Below are positions 1-61,414 of a stretch of DNA of 64,000 nt, piece after piece; within the stretch, counting starts at the first letter, position 1; every line of letters begins with the position of its first letter. The stretch comes from a virus. Location of the stretch: positions 1 through 64,000 of IMG/VR virus record IMGVR_UViG_3300035181_000401, one strand, 5' to 3'. The position numbers and the translations under genes are program-made. A model generated the notes under the pieces. It saw only the letters and a list, made by a program, of their open reading frames with translations, ran no database searches and was not told the DNA's origin.

Positions 1-24
1 CTTAACTGCTGGCACGAATTCAGT

Positions 25-100
25 TGGGGGTTAGCTCAGTTGGTAGAGCAACGGGTTTTGATCCCGTTGGTCGTAGGTTCGAGTCCTACACCCCTTGCCA
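25..100 (+). tRNA. tRNA-Gln (anticodon TTG)
   Basis: Cloverleaf with D arm at 34-49, anticodon stem ACGGG/CCCGT around a seven-base loop whose middle is TTG (58-60), T arm GTAGG/CCTAC with loop TTCGAGT, and an encoded CCA at 98-100. The first acceptor pair is weak (T-T), as is common in tRNA-Gln. It is the first of twelve clustered tRNA genes. Confidence 0.93.
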
Positions 101-106
101 AGATTT

Positions 107-183
107 GCCCTCATCGTCTAACTGGTTCAGGACGCCGGACTTTCAATCCGGGGATGCGAGTTCGATTCTCGCTGAGGGTGCCA
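107..183 (+). tRNA. tRNA-Glu (anticodon TTC)
   Basis: Acceptor GCCCTCA pairs with TGAGGGT, anticodon stem CCGGA/TCCGG holds loop CTTTCAA with anticodon TTC, the T arm has loop TTCGATT, and CCA is encoded at 181-183. Confidence 0.93.
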
Positions 184-58496: not shown

Positions 58497-58683
58497 ACGT
58501 CTCTCCTTGTAGCTATGTGACGAAACGAACATTGTTACACATGGTGCGTACACGGGTATAGGTATTTGCCCTAAGTGTTGTATGTGACAAAGTTCACGCA
58601 CAGTTTGCTCGACTGTGGGTTACAGTTCAGCCATTCCGTACACATCGTTACGGTGACAGCAACAACCCGGAAGGAGTTCCCTC
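58497..58683. promoter_or_regulatory. divergent intergenic region with direct repeats
   Basis: The 187 bases between the divergent ligase and the rightward gene have two near-identical TATGTGACRAA repeats at 58514-58524 and 58581-58591, and several GTTACA/TGTAAC elements. Both directions need promoters here, but I see no consensus hexamer pair. The repeats could be operator sites. Confidence 0.5.
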
Positions 58684-59571: not shown

Positions 59572-59739
59572 ATGAACGCAGAAACTTCCGCTTTCTTCGA
59601 GATGGTTGCTGCGGGCGCAGTCACTACCATGCTGGTCATTGTGGCTCTGGCAGTGACTGTGGTTGTGCTGACGGGCTGCGTGTTCGGACTGCGCCATGCG
59701 TTCAGGTGCCTGAGGGATGGCAAGTCGGTTCTGTGCTGA
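59572..59739 (+). CDS. small membrane protein (55 residues)
   Basis: Acidic N terminus, one hydrophobic helix (TTMLVIVALAVTVVVLTGCV) and a basic C terminus (RHAFRCLRDGKS). It starts three bases after dut, with GGGGGTCTG upstream. LTGC could be read as a lipobox but lies late in the helix. Function unknown. Confidence 0.68.
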   Translation: MNAETSAFFEMVAAGAVTTMLVIVALAVTVVVLTGCVFGLRHAFRCLRDGKSVLC

Positions 59740-59943
59740 AGGAGGGGCCGTCTGGCCCTTTCTCGGAGGATTGCCAAGTAGAGGCATGAGAGTAGAAACA
59801 AGGAAGCTGTCATCGATTCTGTGAACTGTACCACAGATCGGCAGCCCTCCCGGGCTGGCTCAGAATTGGATTTTTCGGATTTGGGATTTCCTAGCGGAAG
59901 GGGCCAATTCCCCTAATATGAGCTTCGCTTCCCCTCCCCCACC

Positions 59944-60241
59944 TCGCCCCCGGGCGATCACCCGCCTGTTGCGCGAAAACAACAGACAGGTGTCTGATAG
60001 GGAGCGGCTATCAGAGACAGTGTCCAATAGGCGGAGCCTATGAGACGGCTGTCGGCTATCATGGACGGGTGTCCGTTAGCCTCAGGCTATCGACGGGCGT
60101 CTCGCGACGGACCTAGGGGATAACCCTATGATAAAGAACGACGGGCGCTAACGGCCCTACGGTCGTTTGACCGTATGGGAGCGGATTCTAGCGGGTATTC
60201 CGGGGCTGTCATCGGGACAAACCCGTAAGGGTGAACCCTTA
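59944..60241 (+). repeat. array of short hairpins / imperfect palindromes
   Basis: Hairpins in order: CTGTTG/CAACAG (59966-59985), TCTGATAG/CTATCAGA (59993-60015), ATAGGC/GCCTAT (60027-60041), TAGCC/GGCTA (60077-60089), TAGGG/CCCTA (60114-60128), TACGGTC/GACCGTA (60158-60175), TAAGGG/CCCTTA (60226-60241). Four units begin with TGTC followed three bases later by TAG or a variant (59991, 60021, 60051, 60070), so they also form a direct repeat with a period of about 30. Confidence 0.75.
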
Positions 60242-60442
60242 GTGTCCGGGAGACGCGCAGGGTTGGATTATGCACCCGGGGGACGACCTCTCTTCCGATG
60301 CTGCGCCCCTATTATACCGCCGCCTCCGCTTCGCCCGTCAAGCAATACCCGACAAACCCGAAGGGCATTACATCGCGTTACTTGCAGTTTCTGCTCTGCC
60401 GTGTAAGAATTGTCCTACCATCAATTCCCCCTAGATTCTGAC

Positions 60443-60471
60443 TTGTCACGCCCGCCCGTGTCGTGCATAGT
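60443..60471 (+). promoter_or_regulatory. promoter P1 of the right arm
   Basis: TTGTCA (60443-60448), 17-base spacer, CATAGT (60466-60471), 45 bases before the next ATG. Confidence 0.6.
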
Positions 60472-60516
60472 GCAAACCTTCAAAACCGGGCATCCCGCCC
60501 ACTATGAAGGCAGACC

Positions 60517-60972
60517 ATGACGACATACCGCAAGACATCGCCCGCCCCCTCTTCCCTCGTGGCGGAGCCCTTCACAGACTATGCGGACGCCCGGACTCGT
60601 GCGGATGCGTTGGGCATCCCGTCCCGCCCCCTCCGCCGCATGACTCCGGAGGGCTTGCGATGGCTCGTCATCCGCCCGGGCATCCCGGCCCGTCCGTCCT
60701 TCGTTCGCGTGGCAGACTGGCACCCTTCGCCCCGCGTCCGTGCGGACATCCTCGGGGAAGTCATGGCCCGGATTCGTTTCGATATCGAAGCCCCGGAGCG
60801 TGACACGGACCGACAGCCCCGCGAAGTCATCCGCCCGCCTGTGAATGGCAACAGGCAACAGGAACGCCCCCGGGAGCCCTTCAAGCCCTCCCCCGGGCAT
60901 GTTGACCGCATCGGGCGGACCTCCCGGCATCCTTCCATGCAACGGAGGGAGAGGGAGCGCGTGACGGCCTGA
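60517..60972 (+). CDS. unknown basic protein
   Basis: 151 residues, Pro- and Arg-rich. N-terminal half may be folded (YADARTRADALGIPSRPLRR, GLRWLVIRPGIPARPSF); the C-terminal 60 residues look disordered. Basic, unlike the acidic genes that follow. Own promoter upstream and a hairpin after the stop. Function unknown. Confidence 0.65.
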   Translation: MTTYRKTSPAPSSLVAEPFTDYADARTRADALGIPSRPLRRMTPEGLRWLVIRPGIPARPSFVRVADWHPSPRVRADILGEVMARIRFDIEAPERDTDRQPREVIRPPVNGNRQQERPREPFKPSPGHVDRIGRTSRHPSMQRRERERVTA

Positions 60973-61096: not shown

Positions 61097-61414
61097 ATGT
61101 CTTTCATGCAACCGCAAGTTTATCAAGGCGAATTCTTCCGCGTGAACACGTCGGCCGGTACGGAGACGGTCCCCGCTGACGTGCTGTCCCTCCGTGTCGG
61201 AGGCGTGGAGGCTTCGATTCTGGCGGACTATTTAGAAGGGACTCCGGACGACCCGCAAGAAATCATCCCCACGGAATCGGGATGGCTCGCGCGCATGTCC
61301 GCCCCGGGCTACCTCGATTGCACGGACTGGACCGCGCACAACACGGAAGCGGAAGCCCTCGCGTATCTGGCGGAAATGTACGGAGACGACACGGACGAGG
61401 AAGGGGGCGAATGA
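61097..61414 (+). CDS. acidic early-type protein
   Basis: 105 residues, strongly acidic. The stretch GWLARMSAPGYLDCTDW is followed by an acidic tail EMYGDDTDEEGGE. I recall similar proteins from phages and plasmids without assigned function. Overlaps the next gene by four bases. A DNA-mimic role is possible from the charge but unproven. Confidence 0.68.
   Translation: MSFMQPQVYQGEFFRVNTSAGTETVPADVLSLRVGGVEASILADYLEGTPDDPQEIIPTESGWLARMSAPGYLDCTDWTAHNTEAEALAYLAEMYGDDTDEEGGE

Follow-up and report, generated by a model that had tools for sequence, protein, structure and literature searches.

Background

Descriptions of ncRNAs from virulent phages are scarce, and for the majority of them no function is known. 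One source of such molecules is PAK_P3, a virulent Pseudomonas phage that makes small and antisense RNAs (PMC4933390). The locus reported here resembles this case in the intergenic or antisense placement of its predicted ncRNA, in belonging to a probably virulent phage and in a similar genome size (PMC4933390). It differs, in a comparison made by description, in that the sRNAs of PAK_P3 are ~100 nt long, late and situated near tRNAs, with no hairpin array mentioned in the accessible part of the account (PMC4933390). The PAK_P3 RNAs thus make a phage-ncRNA reading of our locus ordinary in kind. Another comparable system is that of HK022 putL and putR, two related RNA elements downstream of oppositely facing promoters, an arrangement with a likeness in the present phage (PMC9378689). 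The put elements differ in being ~70 nt long and consisting of two stem-loops, a conserved fold that was not recovered here (PMC9378689). Moreover, unlike in the put arrangement, the array follows only one of the two copies of the conserved 5' block described below. Finally, the array is a series of imperfect dyads with TGTC arms, and in this it presumably resembles the res sites of the Tn3 family. It differs from them in that it does not lie beside a resolvase gene, is absent from a resolvase-bearing relative and has inner parts that both pair and vary; the res arrangement of three dyads next to a resolvase gene, shared by relatives that have the resolvase, was found neither at this locus nor in the relative.

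Here we analyse a gene-free gap in a phage genome whose tandem hairpins appear to be set in a conserved scaffold and which may encode a leftward structured RNA. If this reading is true, an RNA whose hairpin domain can be swapped on a scaffold that is conserved would offer a useful handle on RNA evolution and binding partners.

Results and discussion

The phage and the gene setting of the gap

The window, i.e. the whole stretch of DNA analysed, comprises 64 kb of the 87,459-base virus record IMGVR_UViG_3300035181_000401. The ends of the record (window 1-127 and full record 87,333-87,459) form an exact 127-base repeat, suggesting that the genome is probably complete at ~87.3 kb, in a circular assembly. 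It encodes a terminase, portal, protease, capsid, primase-helicase, DNA polymerase, ligase, thymidylate synthase and nicotinamide phosphoribosyltransferase, a gene set that marks it as a tailed phage, probably a virulent one; its DNA polymerase is at most 55% identical to those of named phages. An early gene for a small protein (window 61097-61414) shows a 74% DNA match over 101 bases to the Burkholderia jumbo phages BcepSauron and BcepSaruman, which is a hint of a related host and of gene exchange.

Leftward replication genes extend up to the ligase at 58,601. They are followed by dut and two small genes, which are oriented rightward and reach 59,739; a series of small early genes, also rightward, begins at 60,517. 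The intervening gap, 59,740-60,516, carries the tandem hairpins. It had been described as gene-free from inspection of the sequence, and we found in it only short mechanical reading frames and no plausible gene; the small proteins flanking it have no family match. A potential hidden protein gene, a minus-strand frame from 60,275, was rejected because the start codon is not shared by the other copy of the 5' block. On the side of the early genes, the promoter scan called the following site:

60443..60471, plus strand: promoter-like site TTGTCA-17-CATAGT for the early genes, rightward and divergent

Folding and repeat structure of the hairpin array

The array and the hairpins next to it comprise the following features, listed in the direction of the minus strand:

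60114..60128, minus strand: short hairpin TAGGG/CCCTA between the array and the first hairpin, found by eye and absent from the minimum-energy fold
60070..60094, minus strand: array unit 4, plus strand TGTCCGTTAGCC TCA GGCTATCGAC (sequence, motif scan and folding)
60050..60066, minus strand: array unit 3, shortened, plus strand TGTCGGCTATCATGGAC, without a fit to TGTCnnnTAG
60021..60046, minus strand: array unit 2, plus strand TGTCCAATAGGC GGA GCCTATGAGAC (sequence, motif scan and folding)
59991..60019, minus strand: array unit 1, plus strand TGTCTGATAG GGAGCGG CTATCAGAGACA (sequence, motif scan and folding)
59959..59992, minus strand: last hairpin, with 14 pairs in the minus-strand RNA, the U-G pairs among them being mismatches on the plus strand

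With the pairing span restricted to at most 40 nt, the minus strand of 59,960-60,120 folds to -67.7 kcal/mol, as against -39.6 (sd 4.67) for 500 dinucleotide shuffles (z -6.0), and the plus strand to -64.5 kcal/mol (z -3.6), none of the 500 shuffles being as low on either strand. The hairpin array is thus present where the sequence-only reading had placed it. Folding with DNA energies gave z-scores of -4.0 for the minus and -2.7 for the plus strand. The stronger folding of the minus strand arises partly because G-U pairs exist only in the minus-strand RNA, e.g. in the last hairpin. In a coarse genome-wide scan of local folding, with few shuffles, the array region ranked high, being neither top nor unique.

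TGTC occurs four times within 90 bp (59,991, 60,021, 60,050 and 60,070), a density matched by none of 2000 shuffles of the region and also reached at two other places in the genome, at ~35.7 and ~71.1 kb. The earlier claim of four TGTCnnnTAG starts with a period near 30 holds only in part: the motif is exact in three of the four units (59,991, 60,021 and 60,070), the unit at 60,050 (TGTCGGCTAT) does not fit, and with start-to-start distances of 30, 29 and 20 the array is not strictly periodic. That the stems vary and nevertheless keep pairing can be read directly in the sequence, as in TAGGC..GCCTA of unit 2 versus TAGCC..GGCTA of unit 4; only three units align well. A scan of viral contigs with a pattern of two consecutive units gave no match, and GTC..GAC closings, considered as a genome-wide signature, are common everywhere and give no signal. 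Among 12-mers complementary to the rest of the phage genome there were three trivial matches only. Rfam returned no family match for the element at the curated threshold and nothing credible at a permissive one. A CsrA-type sponge was considered in view of the GGA in the plus-strand loops of units 1 and 2, and was set aside as the strand evidence is opposite.

A conserved scaffold around a lineage-specific array

Searches for relatives recovered 29 with TerL, 14 with the ligase and 8 with the polymerase, and none or one distant relative with the downstream protein and dut. A syntenic element was found only in the near relative G001 (IMGVR_UViG_3300016484_000447), which came from the TerL search and is identical to our phage at 72% of TerL and 57% of ligase positions; the contig of G004 stops beside the ligase and does not cover the gap. 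The gap of G001 (L054 3,780-4,146) aligns with ours at both ends and around 60,140-60,210, but not in the array. The aligned portions and the sites that accompany them are these:

60336..60341, minus strand: P1 -35-like hexamer TTGACG, 19 bp from the -10 (sequence)
60311..60316, minus strand: P1 -10-like hexamer TATAAT, with constant spacing to the 5' block
60254..60309, minus strand: conserved 5' block, GGGCrCAGCrTCGG-n-CCGGGkGnnTAATCC-CCCTGC, ~55 bp
60273..60286, minus strand: putative 5' strand of a closing stem, TCGTCCCCCGGGTG (RNAalifold, two phages)
60185..60212, minus strand: P2, sigma70-like leftward promoter, ATGACA-16-TAGAAT (TTGACG-16-TACAAT at the same place in the relative)
60158..60175, minus strand: first hairpin after P2, UACGGUC-loop-GACCGUA, paired by eye
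59944..59976, minus strand: conserved end block, putative 3' strand of the closing stem, plus strand TCGCCCCCGGGCG..CCTGTTGCGCG

In minus-strand order the 5' block consists of a -10-like box, GGGCrCAGCrTCGG, a spacer of 7-13 nt, CCGGGkGnnTAATCC and CCCTGC. A second, inverted copy pointing rightward flanks the early region on its far side (~68,438-68,494 of the full record, L004:10438-10494), and both copies, mutually inverted, are also present in the relative. All four copies have a -10-like box at a fixed distance, namely TATAAT, TATGCT, TACAAT and TATGAT. Searches with exact patterns (two forms in viral contigs, one in genome contigs) yielded no further credible copy; matches in L057 and L058 are chance-like, with the rest of the block missing. 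The sequences TTTCTCTTTGAC, after the block copy at 68.44 kb, and TTTGCTTTTCAC, in the relative, resemble a boxA antitermination signal. The promoter and terminator calls are consensus matches, and several of the structural readings are post hoc, made with the sequence in view. P1, with its 19-bp spacer, falls outside the 16-18 bp range of the promoter scan and was hence not called by it; in the relative, the -10 of P1 is poor and a clear -35 is lacking.

Between the two phages the first hairpin and the end blocks are kept, whereas the interior is not. In the relative the first hairpin reads UUCGGUC/GACUGAA, which by eye amounts to one double compensatory change and one change of G-C to G-U, the latter pairing in minus-strand RNA only; RNAalifold recovered this helix only partly from the automatic alignment. 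The same program, run on the two phages, pairs CCCCCGGGUG with CGCCCGGGGG and CCUG with CAGG, joining the 5' and end blocks, which lie ~300 bp apart. These pairs are invariant between the two phages, so that covariation speaks neither for nor against them; they are compatible with a closing stem without proving one. As DNA, the paired stretches form an inverted repeat with imperfections, and the same stem is obtained from the plus strand.

The interior of the relative's gap lacks TGTC repeats, and its local folding is no better than that of shuffles (z -0.2 to -1.1). With unlimited span the z-scores are -1.7 to -2.3 for the whole element and the P2 stretch, a signal that is weak at best. The hairpins are thus specific to one lineage and, judged from the two phages compared, the array is a lineage-specific part of an older conserved element. 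Relatives lacking both the pairing and the TGTC period had been named beforehand as what would tell against the structural interpretation; this lack is what we observe for the array, but not for the element that surrounds it.

A putative leftward structured RNA and its alternatives

The element has no protein-coding frame, folds above chance with a bias towards the minus strand, and has conserved ends and, on the structured strand of both phages, a promoter-like consensus. We consider it about an even chance that the region encodes a leftward (minus-strand) RNA, structured and non-coding or else a long untranslated leader, whose hairpin domain changes fast; on the best reading this predicted RNA would be ~230-360 nt long. 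The non-coding interpretation follows from the presence of only short mechanical frames and from the lack of family matches among the neighbouring small proteins. Of the roles proposed in the sequence-only reading, a regulatory RNA fits best, in light of the stronger minus-strand folding, the conserved leftward promoter-like site and the pairable end blocks, and the element is likely, on these predicted features, to be a new viral regulatory RNA. That reading's broader notion of a non-coding, structure-dependent element is supported, whereas the lasting selection on structure across relatives that it implied is not.

We infer transcription, RNA ends and any function of the element as follows. 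The host RNA polymerase would start at P2 (~60,178), and perhaps also at P1 (~60,305), giving an RNA that opens with the conserved hairpin or with the conserved 5' block and continues into the tandem hairpins, the latter being a lineage-specific, fast-changing insert on an older scaffold. The RNA would reach the block at 59,944-59,976, which may close the domain by pairing with the 5' block if transcription began at P1; as the P2 start falls inside the closing stem, only the P1 transcript could form it. The terminator scan found no good intrinsic terminator on the minus strand after the end block. Hence, the RNA might serve as a leader or extend as antisense RNA as far as dut, and its 3' end could be made by processing; a longer transcript would lie antisense to dut and the small gene at 59,572. 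The most likely job would be that of a stable RNA with nuclease-resistant hairpins that offers several docking sites for an RNA-binding protein. A bolder extension, which we regard as quite doubtful, is a new family of phage RNAs in which the conserved scaffold (5' block, P2, first hairpin and closing block) carries lineage-built hairpin arrays; such RNAs would serve as sponges or decoys that evolve fast to match a host nuclease or RNA-binding protein.

Alternatively, the dyads might act as protein sites in double-stranded DNA, such as res-like subsites for the serine resolvase of the phage or operators of the divergent promoters. The phage does encode a resolvase-domain protein (PF00239; 69,811-70,500 of the full record), and TGTCYGATA arms (at most one mismatch) number four in the 0.4 kb at the array against 24 genome-wide; further, the unit size of 25-29 bp is like that of res subsites, and the arm TGTCTGATA recalls Tn3-type resolvase arms. 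We nevertheless consider this proposal, the leading alternative, unlikely: the arm pattern was picked after the array had been seen and is absent near the phage's own resolvase gene, a homologous resolvase occurs in the relative with no such arm at either the element or the gene, and the inner stems, which a resolvase should not require, still pair.

A different possibility is that one palindrome was duplicated in tandem and that the copies are now decaying, without present function, their pairing being inherited rather than selected. Such decay would account for the degradation of the units along the array, with that at 60,050 shortened and the stretch past 60,095 scrambled, and for the unrelated interior of the relative. 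It appears quite unlikely given that the inner stems are altered but still paired and that the folding is far above that of shuffles.

The functional units might instead be the 5' blocks found at both outward starts, acting in cis as antitermination or pausing elements like HK022 putL and putR, with the array being merely the leader that follows one of the two. Similar blocks at promoter-like sites, in opposite orientations, bracket the early region in both phages, and the conserved -10-like TAATCC inside the block may be set beside the -10-like pause site that putL contains (PMC9378689). However, only weak pairing and no conserved two-stem fold was recovered in the 5' block, in a comparison with put by description, and the leftward block faces opposite-strand genes for ~1.3 kb, making this explanation decidedly unlikely. 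A replication origin or packaging site, also raised earlier, would suit a location flanked by replication genes that run leftward and early genes that run rightward, but is highly improbable; as regards an origin, the region is 59% GC, lacks a DnaA-like box and shows no clear GC-skew turn.

Other elements upstream of the resolvase gene

Besides the putative leftward RNA, the genome offers a second candidate hairpin RNA, a predicted plus-strand, hairpin-rich ncRNA at 70,973-71,264 of the full record (L004:12973-13264). It lies in the gap on the upstream side of the resolvase gene (full record 70.5-71.27 kb), where a promoter-like TAGACA-17-TATAAT (11/12; 70,973-71,001) is followed by a run of hairpins and then, with its end at 71,264, by a terminator-like stem of 20 pairs. 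The RNA between promoter and terminator folds with a z-score of -5.4 (0/200 shuffles as low), has no match in Rfam and runs against its minus-strand neighbours, with only a 74-aa plus-strand frame ending at the start of the RNA. On these predicted features it is a stronger ncRNA candidate than the array at 60 kb, and it supports the idea that the phage may make hairpin RNAs.

In the same gap, at ~70,600-70,735 (L004:12600-12735), the words GCTGTCATATTT and GTTAAGCnACG are common to the phage and G001, and partly to G004; in this phage a plus-strand TTGACA-18-TACAAT precedes the stretch, which could be another conserved element. A direct repeat, CCACGCTCTCGATAAAT, also occurs twice, 40 bp apart, at 70,718-70,775 (L004:12718-12775) upstream of the serine resolvase gene, and its copies are candidate resolvase sites.
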